A stretch of 64,000 bases of DNA from an uncultured beta proteobacterium (GTDB lineage: Bacteria; Pseudomonadota; Gammaproteobacteria; Burkholderiales; Burkholderiaceae_C), in assembly GCA_903844215.1 (NCBI GenBank), contig CAIMSP010000140.1, positions 1 through 64,000 of the forward strand. Reading direction: 5' to 3'. Below, piece after piece: positions 54,100-64,000 of this stretch (positions are counted from its first letter, which is position 1; each line of letters opens with the position of its first letter). The notes beneath the pieces were generated by a model. That model had not been told where the DNA came from, did no database searches, and saw only the letters and a program-made list of their open reading frames with translations. Both the position numbers and the translations under genes were made by a program.

Positions 54100-54642
54100 A
54101 TGCAGAACCAAGACCGTTGCGTTGCGCAGCACGAGGCGCCCAGCGAGCCCCGCGGGCCCTATGGGCGCCTGCTGTTCTGGCTGGCCAAGGCGTTCGCCTA
54201 CGCTGGAGGCATGGTCTTCATCGCCCTGGTGCTCATGTCCGTGGTTTCGATCGTCGGGCGCAAGCTGTTCAGCACGCCGGTGCCCGGCGATGTCGAGCTG
54301 CTGCAGTTGTCCTCGGCCTTCGCCTCGGCCACGTTCTTTGCCTACTGCCATTTGATGAAGGGCGACGTGAAGGTGGACTTCTTCACGGCGCACATGACGA
54401 GCGGGCGGCGCGTCCTGCTCGACTCTGTCGGCTCCTTGCTGGTGGGCTTGCTCGGCACGCTGCTGGCGTGGCGCACCGCCGTCGGCGCCGTCAGCCTGAA
54501 GGAGGGCGGCGAGTCCTCGGCCATCCTTGAACTGCCGGTCTGGATCGCGCAGGCGCTGATGGTGCCCAGCTTCATTCTGCTGGCGCTCGCCGGCTTCTAC
54601 ATGTGCTGGCAGCCCTGGGCCAGGGGAGGGGCGCGCTCATGA
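54100..54642 (+). CDS. dctQ: TRAP transporter small permease DctQ
   Basis: Four-helix small membrane subunit of a TRAP importer, 180 aa, with the DctQ signature VVSIVGRKLFSTPVPGDVE. A GGAG-like site precedes ATG 54100. Overlap with dctM in ATGA. The importer uses an ion gradient and a binding protein to take up organic acids; aromatic acids are suggested by the AOR and PadJ genes downstream. Confidence 0.9.
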   Translation: MQNQDRCVAQHEAPSEPRGPYGRLLFWLAKAFAYAGGMVFIALVLMSVVSIVGRKLFSTPVPGDVELLQLSSAFASATFFAYCHLMKGDVKVDFFTAHMTSGRRVLLDSVGSLLVGLLGTLLAWRTAVGAVSLKEGGESSAILELPVWIAQALMVPSFILLALAGFYMCWQPWARGGARS

Positions 54643-55970
54643 GCGGAATGCAGCTTGGCTTTCTGATCTTCGGCGTGCTGTTGACGCTGCTGGTGCTGCG
54701 CGTTCCGATCGGCGTGGCCATGTTCATCTCGGGCGCCGGCGGCTACCTCTACCTGACCGGCGGACAAGGCACGCCTTGGCTGAATTCGCTGAAGAACCTG
54801 GCCTACGCCCGGCTCTCCAATTACGACCTGGTGGTGATCCCCCTGTTCCTGCTCATGGGCCAGTTCGCCACGCACGGCGGATTGAGCCGTCTGCTGTTTC
54901 GCTTCGTCAGCGCCTTCATGGGGCACCGCAAGGGCGGCATCGCCATGGCGGCGATCGGCGCCTGTGCCGGCTTTGGCGCGATCTGCGGTTCATCCCTGGC
55001 CACGGCCGCGACCATGGGCCAGGTGGCGTTGCCGGAGCTGCGCCGCTACGGCTATTCGGGCGCGCTGGCCACCGGCGCTCTGGCTGCGGGCGGCACCTTG
55101 GGCATCATGATTCCGCCGTCGGTGCCGCTGGTGATCTACGCCATCCTGACGCAGGAGTCGATCGGCAAGCTGTTCATGGCTGCCGTGCTGCCGGGCATCA
55201 TCGCCATGCTCGGCTACATGCTGGTGGTGCAGATCGTGGTCACGCTCGACCCCAAGGCCGGACCGGCGGGCCCGCGTGTGCCCTGGCCGCAGCGCCTGCG
55301 CTGCCTGTTCGAAGTGCTTCCGGTGCTGCTGGTGTTTGTCGTCGTCATCGTCGGCATCTACGGCGGCTGGGCCAACCCGACCGAGGCCGCGTCCATCGGT
55401 GCCGGGTCCTGCGGCATCCTGGCTTTGTTGTCGGGGAATATGGGCATGTCCGAGTTGCGCAAGAGCCTGCTCGGCACAGCCATGGCCACGGCCATGATCT
55501 ATCTCGTGCTGTTGGGTGCCGACATGATGAACTCGGCGTTGGCGATCTCGCAAATGCCGGTGGAGCTGGCGCAATGGGTCAAGGACAGCGGCATGTCGCC
55601 GCTGCTGGTCATGGGCATGATCTTGCTGATCTACATTTTGCTGGGCTGCGTGATGGACGCGCTGGCCATGATCCTGCTGACGATTCCCATCTTCTACCCG
55701 ATGATCATGGGCTTGGATTTCTTCGGCCTGGCGCAAACCGACAAGTCGATCTGGTTTGGCATCCTGGCGCTGATGGTGGTGGAGATCGGCCTGGTGCATC
55801 CGCCCGTGGGAATGAACGTGTACGTCATCAATCGGCTGGCCGTCGATGTGCCGCTGATCGACACCTTCAAGGGCGTGATCCCGTTCCTGATCTCGGACTT
55901 CCTGCGCATCACCCTGCTGGTCTTTTTCCCGGTCATCTCGCTCTACCTGGTGCATCAGTTTGGCGCCTGA
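54639..55970 (+). CDS. dctM: TRAP transporter large permease DctM
   Basis: Large membrane subunit, 443 aa, with about twelve helices and motifs ICGSSLATAATMGQVALPE, GTLGIMIPPSVPLVIYAI and VHPPVGMNVYVI typical of DctM. It forms the translocation pathway with DctQ. It is followed after 43 bp by dctP. Confidence 0.93.
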   Translation: MSGMQLGFLIFGVLLTLLVLRVPIGVAMFISGAGGYLYLTGGQGTPWLNSLKNLAYARLSNYDLVVIPLFLLMGQFATHGGLSRLLFRFVSAFMGHRKGGIAMAAIGACAGFGAICGSSLATAATMGQVALPELRRYGYSGALATGALAAGGTLGIMIPPSVPLVIYAILTQESIGKLFMAAVLPGIIAMLGYMLVVQIVVTLDPKAGPAGPRVPWPQRLRCLFEVLPVLLVFVVVIVGIYGGWANPTEAASIGAGSCGILALLSGNMGMSELRKSLLGTAMATAMIYLVLLGADMMNSALAISQMPVELAQWVKDSGMSPLLVMGMILLIYILLGCVMDALAMILLTIPIFYPMIMGLDFFGLAQTDKSIWFGILALMVVEIGLVHPPVGMNVYVINRLAVDVPLIDTFKGVIPFLISDFLRITLLVFFPVISLYLVHQFGA

Positions 55971-56013
55971 GAAATTCCTTTCCCCCGTTCCCCAACCCCC
56001 AAGGAGATTCCAC

Positions 56014-57051
56014 ATGCAACTACGCAAGACATTCGCCCCCCTGTTGACCGCGACGGCTTTGCTCATGGGCGCGGGCGGTGCCCGGGCACAGGAGGTCACG
56101 CTCAAGGTGCATCATTTCCTCGCGCCCAACGCGACCTCCCAAAAGCTGTTGCTCGGACCGTGGTGCGAAAAGATCGCCAAGGAGTCCAACAACCGACTCA
56201 AGTGCCAGATCTACCCGGCCATGCAACTCGGCGGCACGCCACCCCAATTGTTTGACCAGGCCAAGGACGGCGTGGCCGATATCATCTGGACGGTGCCGAC
56301 CTATCAGGCAGGGCGTTTCTCCAAGTCCGAAGTCTTCGAACTCCCCTTCATGATCAAGACCGCCGAGGGCGGCAGCCGCGCCTTTTGGGAGTACCTGCAA
56401 AAGAATTCCCTGGATGAGTTCAAGGGCACGAAAATCCTGATGGCGCACGTGCACGACGGCGCGGAACTGCACTTCGCCAGCAAGTCGGTGAAGACGCTGG
56501 AAGACCTCAAGGGGCTCAAGCTGCGGGCGCCGACGCGCATCGGCACGCGCATGCTCACGGCCCTGGGCGCAACGCCGATTCAGATGCCTGCGCCCCAGGT
56601 GCAGGAGGCCATTTCCAAGGGCGTGGTCGATGGCGCTTCGCTGCCCTGGGAAGTGGTTCCCGGCATCAAGGTGAACGAGGTCACCAAGTTCCACACCGAG
56701 ACCGGACCGGGCCAGCGCAAGATGTCCAACACCATCTTCGTGGTGGCGATGAACGAGGCCAAATACAACAGCCTGGCGCCGGAATTGAAGAAGGTGATCG
56801 ACGCCAACAGCGGCGCCGACACCTCGGCCTGGGCCGGTCGGGTCTGGGACGGCACGATTGCACCCGGACGCAAGTCGGCCACCGACCGCGGCAATACCGT
56901 GAATGTGCTCACGGCCGAGGAATACCAGCGCTGGGACAAGGCGACGCAAGGCGTGGCCCAGGACTGGATCAAGGATCTGGCGGCCAAGGGCGTTGACGGC
57001 AAGGCGCTGCTGGAGTCGGCCACGGCGCTGCTCAGCCAATACGACAAATAG
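56014..57051 (+). CDS. dctP: TRAP transporter binding protein DctP
   Basis: Periplasmic extracytoplasmic receptor, 345 aa, with signal peptide ending GGARAQE and mature start VTLKVHHFLAPNATSQKL. The conserved Arg that binds the substrate carboxylate is in LKLRAPTRIGTRML. An AAGGAG site precedes ATG 56014. The QMP order is usual for this subfamily. It ends 19 bp from the convergent IclR gene. Confidence 0.92.
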   Translation: MQLRKTFAPLLTATALLMGAGGARAQEVTLKVHHFLAPNATSQKLLLGPWCEKIAKESNNRLKCQIYPAMQLGGTPPQLFDQAKDGVADIIWTVPTYQAGRFSKSEVFELPFMIKTAEGGSRAFWEYLQKNSLDEFKGTKILMAHVHDGAELHFASKSVKTLEDLKGLKLRAPTRIGTRMLTALGATPIQMPAPQVQEAISKGVVDGASLPWEVVPGIKVNEVTKFHTETGPGQRKMSNTIFVVAMNEAKYNSLAPELKKVIDANSGADTSAWAGRVWDGTIAPGRKSATDRGNTVNVLTAEEYQRWDKATQGVAQDWIKDLAAKGVDGKALLESATALLSQYDK

Positions 57052-57070: not shown

Positions 57071-57856
57071 CTACAGCAGGGGGCCGAGTTCGCGCGCCGC
57101 ATTCAGCAGCAGCGGCAACAGGCCGCGCTGCATCTCGGCGGCCGAGGTCCGCTGGTGCGAGGCCACGACATTGAGCGCGGCCACGGTCAGTCCCTTGCTG
57201 TTGCGCAGCGGAACCGCCAGCGCCTGCACGCCGAGTTCGTGCTCTTCGTTGACGATGCAATAGTCTTGTTGGCGCACCTGCTCGATGACGCCGTGAAAGC
57301 TGCGCGCGTCCACCGTGGTGAACGGCGTGATGCGTTGCAGGTGGCGCCCTTTCATCCACTCATTGAACGACTTCTTGGTCTTGGCCGCGAGCAAGATTCG
57401 CCCGGTGGAGGTGGCATGCGCCGGCAGCCGGGCCCCCATGTGCAGGCCATAGGCGATGACGCGGCCCGCGCCGATTTCACCGGGGTTGCGGTCGTTGCCG
57501 CTGCGCGCCACGATGACCACTTCGTCGCCGTCGAGCACCACCGCCGAAAACGATTCCTGCGCCTGAATCGAGAGCCGGTCCAGCGTGGGCTGGAGCGCGC
57601 GCGGCAGCCGGGCCGAGGCGAAATAGTTGCCCGAGAAGCGCAGCACCTTGCTCGACAGCCAGTAGTAACTGCCATCGGTTTCAAGGTAACCCAGGTGCGC
57701 CAGGGTCAGCAGATGGCGGCGCGCAGCGGCGCGTGTGAGTCCGGTGCGCCCGGCGGCGAGCGTGGCATTGAGCCGCTGTCGCTCGGTGTCAAAACTCTCC
57801 AGCACCGCCATGCCTTTGGCCATGCCTTCGATCAGATCGGGTTTGGCAATCGTCAC
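57071..57856 (-). CDS. IclR family transcriptional regulator
   Basis: IclR-type regulator, 261 aa, of the PcaR/PobR subgroup common in aromatic metabolism: KGMAVLESFDTERQRLN start, helix-turn-helix around GLTRAAARRHLLTLAHLGYL, then a GAF-like effector domain (GARLPAHATSTGRILLA; DYCIVNEEHELGVQALAVP). It is divergent from the AOR gene and convergent with dctP, so both neighbouring units are plausible targets. Confidence 0.88.
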   Translation of the reverse strand: MTIAKPDLIEGMAKGMAVLESFDTERQRLNATLAAGRTGLTRAAARRHLLTLAHLGYLETDGSYYWLSSKVLRFSGNYFASARLPRALQPTLDRLSIQAQESFSAVVLDGDEVVIVARSGNDRNPGEIGAGRVIAYGLHMGARLPAHATSTGRILLAAKTKKSFNEWMKGRHLQRITPFTTVDARSFHGVIEQVRQQDYCIVNEEHELGVQALAVPLRNSKGLTVAALNVVASHQRTSAAEMQRGLLPLLLNAARELGPLL

Positions 57857-58031: not shown

Positions 58032-60356
58032 ATGGCCATCAGAGAAAAGCTCGACCGCCTCGTCGCACGCATGCATGACACGCCGCAGTACAACGCCCAA
58101 GGGGCCGTGCTGTTCGTGGATCTGGAACAGCGCACGCTGCGCAGAAAATACCTGCCGCTGGAGGTGCTGCGAAACTTTCTTGGCGGGCGCGGCGCCAACA
58201 TGTGGCTGCTCTACAACCTGATGGAAGAGGAGCGCGACGCGCTGGACCCGCAGATTCCCTTGATCTTTGGCGCCGGCGTGCTGACCAGCAGCATGCCCTC
58301 GGCCACGCGCGGCAACGTCACCAGCAAGTCGCCCGACAGCGATGCGATTCTGGACGCCAATGCAGGCGACTTCTTCCCCTCGTTTTTGCGTCGCCACGGC
58401 TACGAGCACATCGTCCTGTTCGGCCGCTCGGCCAGTTGGACCCTGCTCAAGATCTCCTACGACACGGCCGAATTCATCGACGCCACGCCCTACCTGGGGC
58501 TGGACAACCTGGACATGGCGGCGGCCGTGGCGCGCGACTTCAACTGCGTCGAGCGCGAAGACATGGCGCTGGCGCGCATCACCACCTCGGGCGAGAACCA
58601 GGTGCTGTGCAGCGGCATCATGGGCGGCATCAAGTCGATCTGGGCGCGCGGCGGCGGTGGCGCCAAGATGGGCTCGCTCAGGCTCAAGGCGATCATGATC
58701 CACGGCGAACCCAAGACCCTGGCGCCAGTGCAGCCCATGGCCAAGTACAACCAGCTCATCGGCAAGAAGATCATCGGCACCAGCGTGATCAAGAACGCCC
58801 TGAAGATGGTGGGAACGCCCTTTCTCTACAAGCCCAGCCGGGTGCTGTGCGCCCTGGGGACCAAGAACCATCAGGAGTCGAGTTGGACGCCGGCGCTGGA
58901 CGCCGACAATTTCGACCCCTACCGTCCCGGCATGGACGGCTGCTACCGCTGCCCGGTGCATTGCCGCAACCAGAATGACATGACGCCCGGCGCCAAGTCG
59001 GGCTGGGGCGCCTCGGCCCTCAAGGGGCGGTCGGGCAACGCCAGCTACGACAAGGACCAGGCGGCTATCGACCACGGCAAGCAGCGCAGCTACAACGGCA
59101 TCCACGGCGACGGCCACTACGACCGCTACGACAAGGGCGACGGACCCGAGTACGTCACGCTGGGCAAGTTCGGCCCGCTCATCGGCATCAAGCAGCCCGA
59201 GCAGGTGCTGCGCCTGAACAACATCCTGAACGATCTGGGACTGGACTCGGCCTCCACCGGCAGCGCCATCGCCTGGGCCATGGAACTGTTCCAGCGCGGC
59301 ATCATCGGCTTGGAGGAAACCGGCGGCATGGACCTGAGCTGGGGCAATTACGAGGTCATCGAGAAGCTGCTGTTCATGACCGCGCGCCGCGAAGGCTTCG
59401 GCGACACCCTTGCCGACTCGGCGCGCGCGGTGGAGCGGGGCAAGTACCCGGTGGTCGCGCTCGACTACCGCATGACGGTCAAGGGCCTGTTCCAGTCCGA
59501 TCCGCACGATGCACGCATCCTCAAGGCCTTCGCCCTGGGGCTGTCGGTGGCCACCCGCGGCATGGATCACCTGCGCAACCGGGTCACACTGGAGATCAAC
59601 GCCCGCATCAATGACGATCCGGTGTTCAAGGCGGCCTTGTACGGCGGCAGCGTTTCGGCCGCGCCCAACAGCTACGAAGGCAAGGAATATGCGGTGCGCA
59701 AGTGCGAGAACACCTATGCGGTGGGCGACTCCGTGGGCATGTGCCGTTTCAACACCAAGCTGTTCAACTCCCCCACCTTGCCCGACCTCAAGGATTTCGC
59801 CACGCAACTCAGTGCGCTCACGGGGCAGACCTTCGCTGAGGCCGAGCTCGACGAAATCGGGCGCAACGTCACCGGTGTGGAGCGCATGCTGAACTTCCGC
59901 TTTGGACTGCGCGCCAAGGACGACACGCTGCCCAGGCGCTGGTTTGAAGAGGCCTTGACGGAAGGTCCGTTTGCCGGCGAGAAGATCGACCGCGCCGAAT
60001 TCGAAGCCCTGAAGCAGCGCTTCTACCGCCTCAGCGGCTTGAACACGGAGGGCACGCCGGCCGTGGCCTGGCACGAGAAGCTGTCGCTGCTGATCACCGG
60101 TTTCGCCGTGCGTGTCAGCTTGCCCCAGCCGCTGGCCGGCGCGCCCGAGCAGGTGGTGGTCATCGATGAAGTCATCAGCGACGTGAGCGCACTGCGCCAC
60201 GCCCTGCTGCGCAAGCTGCCCGAGGCCGCGGACGATCTGAACGACAGCAGTTGGAACGTGGCCGTGAATGGCGCGATGGTGCTGTCGGGCGAATCATCCA
60301 CGCCGATTGCCAGCGGGGACCGGCTGGTGCTGGTGCCCATCATCGCCGGCGGATGA
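58032..60356 (+). CDS. tungsten-type aldehyde ferredoxin oxidoreductase fused to a MoaD-like domain
   Basis: AOR-family enzyme, 774 aa, where typical AOR proteins have 600-660. N-terminal tungstopterin domain (LPLEVLRNFLGGRGANMWLL), cluster cysteines 304, 307 and 311 (GCYRCPVHCRN) and the fourth at 571 (GDSVGMCRF) are intact. Residues about 691-774 look like MoaD/ThiS: a ubiquitin-like stretch ending WNVAVNGAMVLSGESS then IASGDRLVLVPIIAGG with the terminal Gly-Gly needed for thiocarboxylation. The enzyme likely oxidises an aromatic aldehyde such as phenylacetaldehyde to the acid, reducing ferredoxin. The AorA and AorC partners of Aromatoleum AOR are absent beside it. Confidence 0.85.
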   Translation: MAIREKLDRLVARMHDTPQYNAQGAVLFVDLEQRTLRRKYLPLEVLRNFLGGRGANMWLLYNLMEEERDALDPQIPLIFGAGVLTSSMPSATRGNVTSKSPDSDAILDANAGDFFPSFLRRHGYEHIVLFGRSASWTLLKISYDTAEFIDATPYLGLDNLDMAAAVARDFNCVEREDMALARITTSGENQVLCSGIMGGIKSIWARGGGGAKMGSLRLKAIMIHGEPKTLAPVQPMAKYNQLIGKKIIGTSVIKNALKMVGTPFLYKPSRVLCALGTKNHQESSWTPALDADNFDPYRPGMDGCYRCPVHCRNQNDMTPGAKSGWGASALKGRSGNASYDKDQAAIDHGKQRSYNGIHGDGHYDRYDKGDGPEYVTLGKFGPLIGIKQPEQVLRLNNILNDLGLDSASTGSAIAWAMELFQRGIIGLEETGGMDLSWGNYEVIEKLLFMTARREGFGDTLADSARAVERGKYPVVALDYRMTVKGLFQSDPHDARILKAFALGLSVATRGMDHLRNRVTLEINARINDDPVFKAALYGGSVSAAPNSYEGKEYAVRKCENTYAVGDSVGMCRFNTKLFNSPTLPDLKDFATQLSALTGQTFAEAELDEIGRNVTGVERMLNFRFGLRAKDDTLPRRWFEEALTEGPFAGEKIDRAEFEALKQRFYRLSGLNTEGTPAVAWHEKLSLLITGFAVRVSLPQPLAGAPEQVVVIDEVISDVSALRHALLRKLPEAADDLNDSSWNVAVNGAMVLSGESSTPIASGDRLVLVPIIAGG

Positions 60357-60418: not shown

Positions 60419-61726
60419 ATGAGCTATTTCGACGAAGCCACCGAGACCCTGGCGCGCGAGCAACTGGCCGACCTGCAACTGCACAAGCTGCAGCAGATGC
60501 TGGCCCACCTGTGGCAAAGGAATCGCTTCTACACCGCCAAATGGCAGGCCGCCGGCGTGCAGCCCGCGGACATCCGCTGCCTGGCCGATCTGTCGCGGTT
60601 GCCGCTGACGCGCAAGAGCGAGTTGCTGCAAGACCAGGCCCAGCACGCGCCGTTCGGCAGCAACCTGACCTACGCGCCCGAAGCCTATGTGCGCATGCAC
60701 CAGACCTCGGGCACCACCGGCCTGCCCTTGAAGGTGTTCGACACGCACGCGTCCTGGGACTGGTGGGGGCGCTGCTGGGGCCATGTTCTGACCGGCGCCG
60801 GAGTCAAGCCCTCGGACCGGCTCTTCATGGCCTTCGGCTTTGGTCCGTTCATCGGCTTCTGGGCCGCAGTCGAAGGCGCGCGCAAGATCGGCGCCATGAT
60901 GCTGCCGGGCGGTGGCCGCGATACCCAGCAACGCCTGGAGATGATGCGCGACGCGGGCGCCACGGTGCTGTGCTGCACGCCCTCGTATGCGCTGCGCATG
61001 GCCGAGGTGGCACAGGAGATCGGCTTCGACCTGCGCTCCATCCCGCTGCAGACCACGGTCCATGCGGGCGAACCAGGGGCCAGCGTCGCGGCCACCAAAC
61101 AACGCATCGAGAACGCCTGGGCCGCCAAGTGTTTTGACCACGCCGGCGCCTCCGAGGTGGGCGCCCATTCCTTTGAGTGCCAGGCCCAACCCGGCGGCAC
61201 GCACCTGATCGAGAGCGAATACATCGCGGAAATCCTCGACCCGCTGAGCGGCGCGCCGGTGTTGCCGGGTGAGCGCGGCGAACTGGTGATCACCAACCTG
61301 GGGCGCTGGGGTTTCCCGGTGCTGCGCTATTGCACCGGCGACCTGGTGCAGGCGAATCTGCAGCGCTGCGCCTGCGGTCGGACTTCGCTGCGCTTTGAAG
61401 GCGGCGTGCTCGGACGCGCCGACGACATGGTGACGGTGCGCGGCGTGAACGTGTTCCCGGCCGGAGTGGAAAACATCATCCGCGGTTTCGCCGAGGTGGA
61501 CGAGTTTCGCGTCACGGTGAGCAAGACCCGGCAGATGGACGAGATGGATATCGAAGTCGAACTGTGCGCAGGCACTGACGCCGCCTTGATTCAAACCATC
61601 GGCACCCGGCTCGACAGCCTACTGGCCTTTCGCCCGCGCGTGCGCCAGGTGGCCCACGGCGCGCTGCCGCGCTTTGAAATGAAAGCCAAGCGCTTCCACG
61701 TCAAATTGGAGCCCGCGGGGTGCTGA
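60419..61726 (+). CDS. padJ: phenylacetate-CoA ligase (PaaK/PadJ family)
   Basis: AMP-forming aryl-CoA ligase of the PaaK group, 435 aa. It shows the ATP motif HQTSGTTGLPLKVFDTH, the HAGEPGASVAATK segment and CACGRTSLRFEGGVLGRADD, with the C-terminal catalytic Lys in FEMKAKRFHVKLE. It converts phenylacetate (or a related acid) to its CoA ester. Placement between an AOR gene and PadE/PadH-like genes matches the anaerobic phenylacetate pathway, hence padJ. Confidence 0.85.
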   Translation: MSYFDEATETLAREQLADLQLHKLQQMLAHLWQRNRFYTAKWQAAGVQPADIRCLADLSRLPLTRKSELLQDQAQHAPFGSNLTYAPEAYVRMHQTSGTTGLPLKVFDTHASWDWWGRCWGHVLTGAGVKPSDRLFMAFGFGPFIGFWAAVEGARKIGAMMLPGGGRDTQQRLEMMRDAGATVLCCTPSYALRMAEVAQEIGFDLRSIPLQTTVHAGEPGASVAATKQRIENAWAAKCFDHAGASEVGAHSFECQAQPGGTHLIESEYIAEILDPLSGAPVLPGERGELVITNLGRWGFPVLRYCTGDLVQANLQRCACGRTSLRFEGGVLGRADDMVTVRGVNVFPAGVENIIRGFAEVDEFRVTVSKTRQMDEMDIEVELCAGTDAALIQTIGTRLDSLLAFRPRVRQVAHGALPRFEMKAKRFHVKLEPAGC

Positions 61727-61766: not shown

Positions 61767-61900
61767 TCCAAAAATGAATTGGACGAATGGGCCGAGAGCC
61801 ACTACATTGACCGACAAACAGGTTCGCACAGAGCCCACAAGAAATTCAAGAAGGATGGGGCGGCGCGCGCTGAGCCCGGACTTTGAGAGGAGACGACACC

Positions 61901-62458
61901 ATGCTTGAGATCATCATCCAGGGCCGTGGCGGCCAGGGTGCACAGACCGCCGGGAATTTGCTGGCGGGCGCGTTCCATGCGCAAGGCCTGCACGTTCAGT
62001 GCTTTGCCAGCTACGGCGGAGCGCGCCGCGGCACACCCGTGAACTCCTATCTGCGCGTGGACCAGCGACCGGTGCGTGTGCGCTGCGACATCGAGCGCGC
62101 CAACGCCATCCTGTGCTTTGACGCCAGTCTGCTCGAAGGCCGACTGCTGGGCGCGGCCCATGCCGACACCTTCATCGTCGTCAATTCGGCGCGCAGCGCC
62201 AGCGACTTTGCGCAACTCCTGCCCGGCAGAAAAGTCATCCCCATCGATGCACTGGCGATCTCGCGCGAGCAGGGCCTGGGGCGCATCGTGAACTCCGCCT
62301 TGCTCGGCGCTTTGGCCCGGGTGCTGCAGGCGCCCACGCTGGCCGCGTTGACGCAGGCGCTGGTGGACAACGCGCCCAAGCACCACGACGAGAACGTCGC
62401 CGCCTGCACCGAAGGCTACCGCTGGGCCGACCGGCAACTTTCGGCAGTTGTAGCATGA
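61901..62458 (+). CDS. padE: 2-oxoacid oxidoreductase gamma subunit (PadE-like)
   Basis: Gamma subunit of a 2-oxoacid:acceptor oxidoreductase, 185 aa, with the conserved QGRGGQGAQTAGNLLAGAF and FASYGGARRGTPVNSYLRV motifs of the PorG/KorC fold, which binds CoA. With the PaaK ligase upstream and a PadH-like gene downstream it fits phenylglyoxylate dehydrogenase, which makes benzoyl-CoA from phenylglyoxylate. A GAGAGGAG site precedes ATG 61901. Pyruvate or 2-oxoglutarate enzymes use the same fold, so the substrate is inferred. Confidence 0.82.
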   Translation: MLEIIIQGRGGQGAQTAGNLLAGAFHAQGLHVQCFASYGGARRGTPVNSYLRVDQRPVRVRCDIERANAILCFDASLLEGRLLGAAHADTFIVVNSARSASDFAQLLPGRKVIPIDALAISREQGLGRIVNSALLGALARVLQAPTLAALTQALVDNAPKHHDENVAACTEGYRWADRQLSAVVA

Positions 62459-64000
62459 GCGCCCTCGTCCCCACCACCTGGACCACGGGCAGCACCGAGG
62501 CCATCAAGACCGGCACCTGGCGCGCCTCCTTGGCGAAGCACATTCAGGCTCCAGCGCCCTGCCACGGCGCCTGCCCGGTCGATGGCGAGATCGCGCAATG
62601 GATAGGACTGGCGCGAGCGCGCGATTTCCACGGCGCCTGGCAGGTGCTGGTGCGGCACAACCCCTTTCCCTCGATCGCCGGGCGCATCTGCCACCACCCC
62701 TGCGAGACCGCCTGCAACCGCGCCGGTTATGACGCGGCCTTGTCGATCTGCAAGCTCGAGCGCTTCGTGGGCGATCAGGCGCTGGCACAGGGCTGGAAGT
62801 TCGAGCCGGCGCCGGCGCGAAGCGGCCACGTGGCCATCGTCGGCGGTGGTCCATCGGGCTTGTCGGCGGCGTTTCAATTGCGCTCCATGGGTTTTGCCGT
62901 GACGCTCTACGAAGCCCAGGCCGAGTTGGGCGGGCTCATGCGCTACGGCATCCCGGCCTACCGTCTGGCGCGCACGGTGCTCGACGGCGAGATCGCCCGC
63001 ATCGTGGCGCTGGGCGTGACCGTGCACTGCAATCACCGCATCGACTCCGCCTCGGGTTTTGCCCAGCTGCGCGAGCAGCACGACGCGCTTTATCTGGCGC
63101 TGGGCGCCGCGCGCCCCAAGCGCCTGCCCGCGCTCGACTACAGCCAGGATTTTGTCTGCGACGGCGCGGCCTACCTGGCCGGCGCCAACAGCGGCCAGCC
63201 GATGGCGCTGGGGCGGCGCCTGGTGGTGGTGGGCGGCGGCAGCGCCGCGCTCGATGCCGCGCGCAGCGCGCGCCGACTCGGGCACGAGGTCACGCTGCTG
63301 GCACTGGAACAACGCCAGCAAATGCCGGCACAGCACGAAGAAGTGGAAGAGGCGTTGGAGGAAGGCATCGTTCTGGTGGACGGTGCGCGCCTGGACCAGG
63401 TGCACGACCAGGGCGCGGCCGGGCTGACCCTGAGTTGCACGCGGGTGGCCTTTGTCGCGGGCGCGAAACGCGGGCAGTTCAGCCTGAGCACGCTGGCCGA
63501 CAGCGCCTTCGACATGGCGGCCGACGCCGTCGTCACCTCCATCGGCCAGGACCCCGAACTCGACATCCTGGGCCAGGGTTTCGCCGCGGCCGGTGGCTTG
63601 CTCGTCACCGACGCGCGCCTGGCGACCGCCTGCCAGGGGGTTTACGCCGGTGGCGACATGGCCAGCATGGCGCGCTTCGTGACCGAGGCCATCGGCATGG
63701 GACAACGCGCCGCCCAGGAGATTGCGCGCGAACTCGGGCGCGGCGCGGCGGCGCAGCAAAGCGGCGAAGCCGAGGTGGCGCTGGCGGCCATCGGCACCTG
63801 GTATCACCCCAAGCAGGACCGCGCGCCCTCGCGCTGGCTGGCCGTGGCCGAGCGCCTGCAGGGCGACGCCGAAGTCCAGTTGGGACTGGAACTCGAACAG
63901 GTGCTGGCGGAGAGCGAACGCTGCTTTTCCTGCGGCACCTGCACCCACTGCGACAACTGCGTGGTGTATTGCCCCGACATGGCCGTGGTGCGCTCGGGCG
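62455..64000 (+). CDS. padH: PadH-like flavo-iron-sulfur subunit, partial at the window edge
   Basis: Starts in an ATGA overlap with padE and stays open to the window end (515 codons). A GltD-type Cys region at residues 35-90 (PCHGACPVDGEI; RICHHPCETACNRAGY) is followed by an FAD motif (VAIVGGGPSGLSAA near 126), an NAD(P) motif (LVVVGGGSAALDAA near 256) and a C-terminal ferredoxin-like motif (CFSCGTCTHCDNCVVYCP from 490). This is the expected NAD+-reducing subunit of phenylglyoxylate dehydrogenase. Whether the ferredoxin part ends the gene or is a fusion needs the next bases. Confidence 0.8.
   Translation, partial: MSALVPTTWTTGSTEAIKTGTWRASLAKHIQAPAPCHGACPVDGEIAQWIGLARARDFHGAWQVLVRHNPFPSIAGRICHHPCETACNRAGYDAALSICKLERFVGDQALAQGWKFEPAPARSGHVAIVGGGPSGLSAAFQLRSMGFAVTLYEAQAELGGLMRYGIPAYRLARTVLDGEIARIVALGVTVHCNHRIDSASGFAQLREQHDALYLALGAARPKRLPALDYSQDFVCDGAAYLAGANSGQPMALGRRLVVVGGGSAALDAARSARRLGHEVTLLALEQRQQMPAQHEEVEEALEEGIVLVDGARLDQVHDQGAAGLTLSCTRVAFVAGAKRGQFSLSTLADSAFDMAADAVVTSIGQDPELDILGQGFAAAGGLLVTDARLATACQGVYAGGDMASMARFVTEAIGMGQRAAQEIARELGRGAAAQQSGEAEVALAAIGTWYHPKQDRAPSRWLAVAERLQGDAEVQLGLELEQVLAESERCFSCGTCTHCDNCVVYCPDMAVVRSG

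Follow-up and report, generated by a model that had tools for sequence, protein, structure and literature searches.

A MoaD-like domain at the C-terminus of a conserved family of AOR/WOR-type oxidoreductases from Beta-, Gamma- and Deltaproteobacteria

A frame near the end of a 64,000-nucleotide stretch of DNA from an uncultured beta proteobacterium (contig CAIMSP010000140.1, positions 1 to 64,000; hereafter referred to as the window) raises the question of whether an enzyme of the aldehyde oxidoreductase (AOR)/tungsten oxidoreductase (WOR) superfamily carries its own MoaD-like sulfur carrier and, if so, what purpose the carrier serves. The frame is uninterrupted over 774 residues on the forward strand, and its product ends in IIAGG. 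The original prediction, made from the sequence alone, recognized a MoaD/ThiS-like tail of about 84 residues ending exactly in Gly-Gly, and proposed either self-supplied cofactor maturation or release of the tail by cleavage. The features of the gene are listed below; A2 denotes a 72-row alignment consisting of 70 of the 72 stop-reaching loci described in the next paragraph, the window protein and L009 (L034 and L089 were excluded because their N-terminus is absent).

58032–60356, + strand: fusion gene of 774 amino acids, AOR/WOR body with a C-terminal MoaD-like domain (open reading frame, Pfam, orthologues)
58104–58706, + strand: AFOR_N domain, residues 25–225 (Pfam, 152.6 bits, cut-off 29.8)
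58761–60089, + strand: AFOR_C domain, residues 244–686 (Pfam, 297.3 bits, cut-off 27)
58941–58964, + strand: CxxCxxxC motif, C304, C307 and C311 (alignment with solved AORs; 72 of 72 rows of A2)
58965–59150, + strand: 62-residue segment, residues 312–373, between the third Fe-S cysteine and Tyr374 (33 fused rows compared)
59154–59156, + strand: codon of Val375, aligned with Glu313 of the P. furiosus AOR (alignment A2)
59742–59744, + strand: C571, fourth Fe-S cysteine (alignment with AOR; 72 of 72 rows of A2)
60096–60104, + strand: T-G-[FY] at the domain junction, residues 689–691 (alignment A2)
60102–60353, + strand: MoaD-like beta-grasp domain, residues 691–774 (Pfam, profile comparison, predicted structure)
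60348–60353, + strand: terminal Gly773-Gly774, invariant (orthologue C-termini, alignment A2)

The body belongs to COG2414, the AOR/WOR superfamily, as both AFOR domains scored above their curated cut-offs and all four cysteines (C304, C307, C311 and C571, which we take to be the Fe-S ligands) were present in every row of A2. The Pfam ThiS match covered residues 715–774; it scored 29.3 bits in the whole protein and 34.7 bits (E 2.7e-8) when only the final 84 residues were searched, the cut-off being 22.5 in both cases. In an order-level sample of 399 genomes, including that of the window, three other genomes had full-length matches with 69–72% identity over residues 1–774, and one further genome (G329) had a partial match (35% identity) without the tail. 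A scan of a species-genome collection gave 150 candidates, the best of which, 76 loci with 62–97% identity to the window protein, were kept. They include Rhodocyclales, Comamonadaceae and other Betaproteobacteria, Motiliproteus, Amphritea, Sedimenticola and Desulfuromonadales, so that the fusion is present in Beta-, Gamma- and Deltaproteobacteria. All 72 loci with a stop codon end in Gly-Gly, the remaining four running off their contigs, and the proteins in A2 are 769–786 residues long, with exactly 774 residues in 64 of the 72 rows. A frameshift or mis-assembly joining two separate genes, which would have undone the original prediction, can be excluded because the 76 loci encode the same protein at near-equal length in three proteobacterial groups, with the same ending wherever the stop is reached. 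The fusion is real and conserved.

A class-level draw of 369 genomes yielded 10 with a match, including the window's own; seven other proteins reached residue 774, all with a Gly-Gly end (one of them, from G1405, being from the genome of L090), and of the remaining two matches one was truncated by a contig end and one was distant and lacked the tail. In a phylum-level draw of 398 genomes, AFOR_C was found in only 10, and there was no fusion other than that of the window. A plasmid search returned 83 records, all with <60% identity, and among the 30 matches listed the match ended by residue 693. Desulfobacterota were also surveyed (match in 233 of 297 genomes), but these data are unusable for counting fused genes, because they contain the best-scoring places only and fused genes score lower. 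Tandem second copies of the fusion gene were found at eight Rhodocyclales or related loci (L020, L021, L024, L026, L028, L034, L041 and L053); seven reach the stop with a PIIAGG end and that of L026 is truncated by the contig. Among seven proteins from other AOR clades (L263–L269, frames of 702–915 residues), no independent fusion was found: none had a tail-, MoaD-, AorD- or ThiS-like C-terminus, and a separate 78-residue frame resembling a ubiquitin-like protein (UBL) lies near L263. A tail hidden Markov model (HMM) found the tail at none of 61 loci.

The tail has diverged more than the body (mean pairwise identity in A2 of 53% and 74%, respectively), and only 4 of its 85 columns are invariant: P730, E754, G773 and G774. 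By our own arithmetic, the chance of two of four invariant columns falling on the last two positions is about 0.002. Profile comparison of 56 tails by HHalign gave the best result with 18 stand-alone MoaD proteins from fusion genomes (probability 98.0, E 1.9e-13, 69 columns). AorD-type UBLs came next (93.7 over 41 columns), ahead of two more groups of UBLs from aor operons (69.8 and 63.0) and of ThiS (32.6). Similarly, the mean HMM score on the 56 tails was 22.9 bits for MoaD, against 8.9 (AorD; best 17.4), 5.5 and 3.1 for the three aor-operon groups; the comparison groups hold 3–18 stand-alone sequences each, all from fusion genomes, sorted by hand by ending and place. At the level of sequence, stand-alone MoaD is therefore closer to the tail than are the MoaD-like proteins encoded in aor operons. 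The close kinship with aor-operon UBLs expected of a WorX/AorD protein was not found, and capture of an AorD or WorX gene was rejected on these profiles, within the limits of such small groups.

The predicted structure points in the same direction. In the AlphaFold model of the whole protein, residues 691–770 fall in blocks with a predicted local distance difference test (pLDDT) value of 86–93, falling to 56 for the last four residues; the tail modelled alone has a pLDDT of 84.6. For the tail model, Foldseek placed the MoaD chain of molybdopterin synthase, 1nvi_D, first (E 5.0e-5), and VIA aligned the two over 78 residues with Z 10.9 and 2.4 Å; we take 1nvi, and also 1fm0, to be E. coli MoaD structures. 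SAMP1 (4hro_B, Z 10.6) and CysO were also among the top matches, with plain ubiquitins lower (Z 7–8). The tail combines a predicted beta-grasp fold of the MoaD type with an exact C-terminal Gly-Gly. It shares its best structural match, its ending and a 69-column profile alignment with MoaD, the small subunit of molybdopterin synthase, but MoaD is a free protein of about 81 residues. The MoaD/ThiS-like tail of the original prediction has consequently withstood profile search, structure prediction (a ubiquitin-like fold being modelled with confidence) and a survey for the same fusion.

The best account of these data, to which we assign a probability of about one half, makes the protein an AOR/WOR-type oxidoreductase with a pterin cofactor and with a dedicated sulfur carrier held in cis for assembly of that cofactor. 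Gly774 would be adenylated by an E1-type enzyme (MoeB/ThiF) and converted to a thiocarboxylate by a sulfur donor; MoaE would dock on the tail, and the dithiolene sulfurs of the pterin would be made at, or passed to, the tethered apo-enzyme, the tail remaining attached. The tail would work like MoaD by resemblance, although it is not classed as MoaD. The retention of a real fusion in dozens of bacteria suggests a part for the enzyme in maturing its own cofactor. Many tungsten oxidoreductases are accompanied by MoaD/ThiS-like proteins, whose job there is not settled; the fusion places carrier and client in one chain and renders the question testable.

The genomes containing the fusion bear on whether the tail does the job of a neighbouring gene. 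Thirty such genomes had 100 AFOR_N matches, 31 fused and 69 non-fused. Of the 69 non-fused matches, 25 had a Pfam ThiS match within 6 kb, including 12 of the 15 scoring highest on AFOR_N; none of the 31 fused genes had one, setting aside the tail of a tandem fused copy. The original prediction's statement that separate MoaD-like genes accompany some aor genes is thereby borne out. The value of 25 is a lower bound, because UBL-like frames without a Pfam match adjoin two AORs, L165 (GGRD end) and L011 (DGG end; not among the 69). That of L165 (L165:2936–3235, − strand) encodes 99 residues beside an unfused AOR and ends in AGGRD; as it extends two residues past Gly-Gly, it would need trimming for a sulfur-carrier role. 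The window's genome itself has two AFOR_N genes, the fusion and, on another contig, an ordinary AOR adjoined by a separate MoaD-like gene with a Gly-Gly end. In Thermococcus, deletion of UBLs, including the one adjacent to AOR, is reported to have reduced the activities of AOR and FOR in one of the media used (PMC11323500). As a side observation, in the window's genome (contig C81, L002:1720–2019) a 99-residue frame with a Gly-Gly-Gly end adjoins the aorD-like gene in the operon of the ordinary AOR; its only match is a sub-threshold one to DUF1952 (E 0.02), and it may be an AorE-type protein.

Several observations weigh against a carrier in cis. The tail scores far below the NCBIfam MoaD equivalog cut-off (TIGR01682: 21.3 bits for the tail and 15.5 for the whole protein, cut-off 66.15). 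A third contig of the window's genome carries a MoaD-like gene (ThiS 54.8 bits) between a MoeA-like frame, identified by sequence only, and moaE, so that a MoaD-MoaE pair exists there. Stand-alone ThiS/MoaD-family matches persist in all 30 fusion genomes searched, and in the six in which the fusion is the sole AFOR_N gene there are still two to six of them. The fused domain is therefore an extra, and replacement of the cell's MoaD by the fusion can be ruled out. Forty-four of the 69 non-fused matches also lack a nearby Pfam ThiS match, so the absence of a UBL near fused genes is moderate evidence that the tail does the neighbour's job. Eleven genomes, that of the window and 10 of the 30, were tested for partner genes: nine had MoaE and 10 had a ThiF-family E1, which counts in favour of the carrier, whereas MoaE was not found in two of these draft genomes and E1 in one. 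No E1 or MoaE gene was recognized among the classified neighbours of the fusion, which are part of all neighbours. Finally, when Thermococcus was grown on elemental sulfur, AOR and FOR were reportedly unaffected by the loss of its UBLs (PMC11323500). On balance, the "Rosetta-stone" link between AOR and pterin assembly put forward in the original prediction holds moderately, given the UBL genes near non-fused AORs; we favour delivery in cis, but the self-supplied maturation that it suggested cannot mean sole supply.

The enzyme body also has specific features. Second-shell residues Thr243, Glu313, Tyr427 and His448 (P. furiosus AOR numbering) have been tied to aldehyde oxidation in two reports (PMC13328260, PMC12096430). 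The equivalents of Thr243 and His448 are retained in all 72 rows of A2, but the Glu313 position is occupied by Val (51), Ile (14), Thr (4), Ala (2) or Ser (1), and never by Glu, and that of Tyr427 is His in all 72 rows. The canonical AORs compared have Glu and Tyr at these positions in 15 of 15 cases; the change of Tyr to His alone has been described for one AOR (PMC12096430). The distance from the third Fe-S cysteine to Tyr374 is 62 residues in 33 of 33 fused proteins, against 12–27 in 53 non-fused AOR/WOR proteins (53 of 57 non-fused rows, the divergent L203–L205 and L208 being left out of the active-site and loop comparisons); this segment is conserved and modelled mostly at low confidence. 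The fusion thus shares AFOR_N, AFOR_C, the Fe-S cysteines, Thr243 and His448 with AOR sensu stricto (P. furiosus 1aor, A. aromaticum 8c0z), but differs from it in the replacement of Glu313 and Tyr427, in the 62-residue segment and in the tail. The name "aldehyde oxidoreductase" is doubtful, because the Glu and Tyr of aldehyde oxidizers are absent and the segment is present, and the label in the original prediction is unsafe: judging from these residues, the enzyme probably does not perform classical aldehyde oxidation.

In a phylogenetic tree of the AORs of fusion genomes plus L011, the fused proteins formed a single clade on a long branch (support 100/100). This clade grouped with BamB, the class II benzoyl-CoA reductase, and L165 (100/98), but with a long-branch warning, and the sister group may shift with wider sampling. 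Thirty-one rows were left out of the tree: 14 fused proteins, 13 near-duplicates and the divergent group L203–L205 and L208. An initial FastTree analysis of 90 rows gave the same grouping, although the re-rooted tree had weak support values (0.488 and 0.616) around the fused clade. The BamB identity of the group was checked for one member, L171 (4z3w, 1302.7 bits). Unlike BamB, which has Cys322 in 12 of 12 sequences, the fused proteins have Lys (31) or Arg (2) at this position in all 33 cases, as well as other active-site residues, and no tail was found in the BamB loci by HMM. The fusion marks a branch of W/Mo enzymes extending over three proteobacterial groups, with an active-site segment of its own and a reaction that is probably not aldehyde oxidation.

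The genes surrounding the fusion in the window are as follows.

54100–57051, + strand: TRAP transporter genes encoding a small membrane protein, a large membrane protein and a DctP binding protein (DctP by Pfam; the membrane proteins by sequence and place only)
57071–57856, − strand: divergent IclR-type regulator, PcaR/PcaU/PobR subfamily (profile match over cut-off)
60419–61726, + strand: PaaK-like AMP-forming ligase, the next gene downstream (PaaK models score highest in NCBIfam, but under their cut-offs)
61883–62458, + strand: gamma subunit of a 2-oxoacid:acceptor oxidoreductase (TIGR02175, 132.5 bits, cut-off 81.1)
62455–64000, + strand: GltD/PorD-like NAD(P) and Fe-S oxidoreductase, continuing beyond the window (best match 512 bits, cut-off 516)

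Beyond the window, the contig continues with POR alpha-like and POR beta-like genes (best matches below cut-offs) and a PaaK gene over its cut-off. Many Rhodocyclales loci, of which L024 is the type, begin with KorA, KorB and a YfhL-type ferredoxin, each scoring above its cut-off, then have a ferritin-like protein (assigned by sequence, without a family match) and the fusion, followed by a PaaK-like ligase and a MarR-type regulator that scores under its cut-off. A KorA/PorA, KorB or PorB cluster gene was present within 6.5 kb at 40 of 77 loci and absent from 37; a ferredoxin was found within this distance at 31 loci and a PaaK-like gene at 28, rising to 33 for a PaaK-like gene anywhere in the flanks. 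For the 33 loci with both flanks longer than 6 kb, the corresponding numbers were 20 (KorA/PorA-KorB/PorB), 14 (ferredoxin) and 17 (PaaK-like). None of the 40 loci was from Desulfuromonadales, in which the neighbours are instead TRAP genes and genes for a UspA-like protein, a transglutaminase-like protein and a hydrolase (by sequence). KorAB gives electrons to benzoyl-CoA reductase in Thauera (PMC9973337). In part of the family, the neighbourhood hints at ferredoxin-driven aromatic metabolism, and we tentatively suggest, by analogy and for that part only, that the fusion might reduce an aromatic acid, or the CoA ester of one, with electrons of low potential. The composite proposal is a self-maturing metallopterin reductase that forms a separate branch of the superfamily near BamB. 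Low-potential electrons would reach it from a 2-oxoacid:ferredoxin oxidoreductase, its substrate would be an aromatic acid or aryl-CoA, and its permanently attached MoaD domain would make or sulfurate its cofactor in cis. This is more speculative still, and we would not expect it to hold as a whole.

Other functions for the tail can be weighed against this background. The strongest competitor, although an unlikely one, is a docking or structural domain without sulfur chemistry, the partner held being ferredoxin, MoaE, an insertase or another copy of the enzyme itself. The near-constant length of the junction, with no insertion within residues 676–774 in any row of A2 and gaps only near residue 700 (7 of 72 rows), suggests a set orientation, and another MoaD is available for sulfur work in fusion genomes; such a domain would not, however, need Gly-Gly at its end in 72 of 72 cases when identity elsewhere in the tail has fallen to 53%. 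A thiocarboxylate might alternatively sulfurate the W/Mo centre in cis, providing it with a sulfur ligand such as a terminal sulfido group, rather than supply sulfur to the pterin. FdhD and XdhC provide comparable sulfuration for other pterin enzymes, and the remodelled active-site surroundings (the Glu313 and Tyr427 positions and the 62-residue segment) and lack of the BamB cysteine ligand would fit this explanation, but we consider it rather improbable, the tail being nearest to MoaD; moreover, we know of no WOR needing a metal-centre sulfuration step.

We give little credence to release of a free MoaD-like protein by internal initiation or by post-translational cleavage, the latter being the second option of the original prediction. 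A protease might read the near-invariant junction residues (T689 and G690, each 71 of 72 rows; [FY]691, 72 of 72), but this conservation may reflect their place in the AlphaFold model, between helix 678–689 and the first domain strand, 693–696. The junction, with short deletions only and no insertion, is otherwise constant in length, and an in-frame start codon with a Shine-Dalgarno-like site was found within residues 675–700 in none of 63 genes of exactly 774 codons, on which basis an internal start was rejected. It is very improbable that the tail donates sulfur to a small molecule, converting an aromatic acid to its thioacid or thioester in the manner of operons of the pyridine-2,6-dithiocarboxylic acid (PDTC)/quinolobactin type. 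The PaaK-like AMP-forming ligase near 28 of the 77 loci recalls the operons combining a UBL with an AMP-acid ligase in row 4a of a published table (PMC1779556), but no JAB peptidase or rhodanese-E1 was recognized among the classified neighbours, and KorAB and ferredoxin indicate redox work. Least credible of all is protein conjugation of the SAMP/ubiquitin type, in which the Gly-Gly end would join the enzyme to lysines of itself or of partners: SAMP1 is among the nearest folds, and the UBLs of Thermococcus are described as serving both sulfur transfer and conjugation (PMC11323500), but a modifier of 774 residues would be odd, and no E2, E3 or JAB gene was recognized among the classified neighbours.

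The fusion is already in print. For Azoarcus, Iyer, Burroughs and Aravind (2006) wrote that MoaD "might be fused" to AOR, while row 3 of their Table 1 states the fusion (PMC1779556); in the parts of the article bearing on it, this amounts to one sentence and a table comment, for Azoarcus alone. No later study of a MoaD-AOR fusion was recognized in searches of openly licensed full-text papers, and the fusion, once noted, has apparently not been studied since. As in the window protein, MoaD is described there as lying at the C-terminus of an aldehyde ferredoxin oxidoreductase; the likeness is one of description, and the present data differ in concerning a clade of dozens of members with evidence from predicted fold, conservation and active site. 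The single clade with its fixed junction, the Gly-Gly among four invariant tail positions, the missing second-shell Glu and Tyr and the 62-residue segment appear, from the alignments, to be new relative to that account. WorX/AorD, like the fused tail, is a MoaD/ThiS-family protein tied to AOR with a predicted function (PMC13328260, PMC6365974), but it is encoded by a separate gene and has a more distant profile. The 2026 classification of WORs describes WorX as ThiS-like and its exact function as unknown (PMC13328260); the words "MoaD" and "fusion" are absent from its main text, in which the one occurrence of "fused" refers to a transporter. For A. aromaticum and related bacteria, a 2025 review mentions "AOR1" as a putative second W-protein, which perhaps corresponds to this fusion family.

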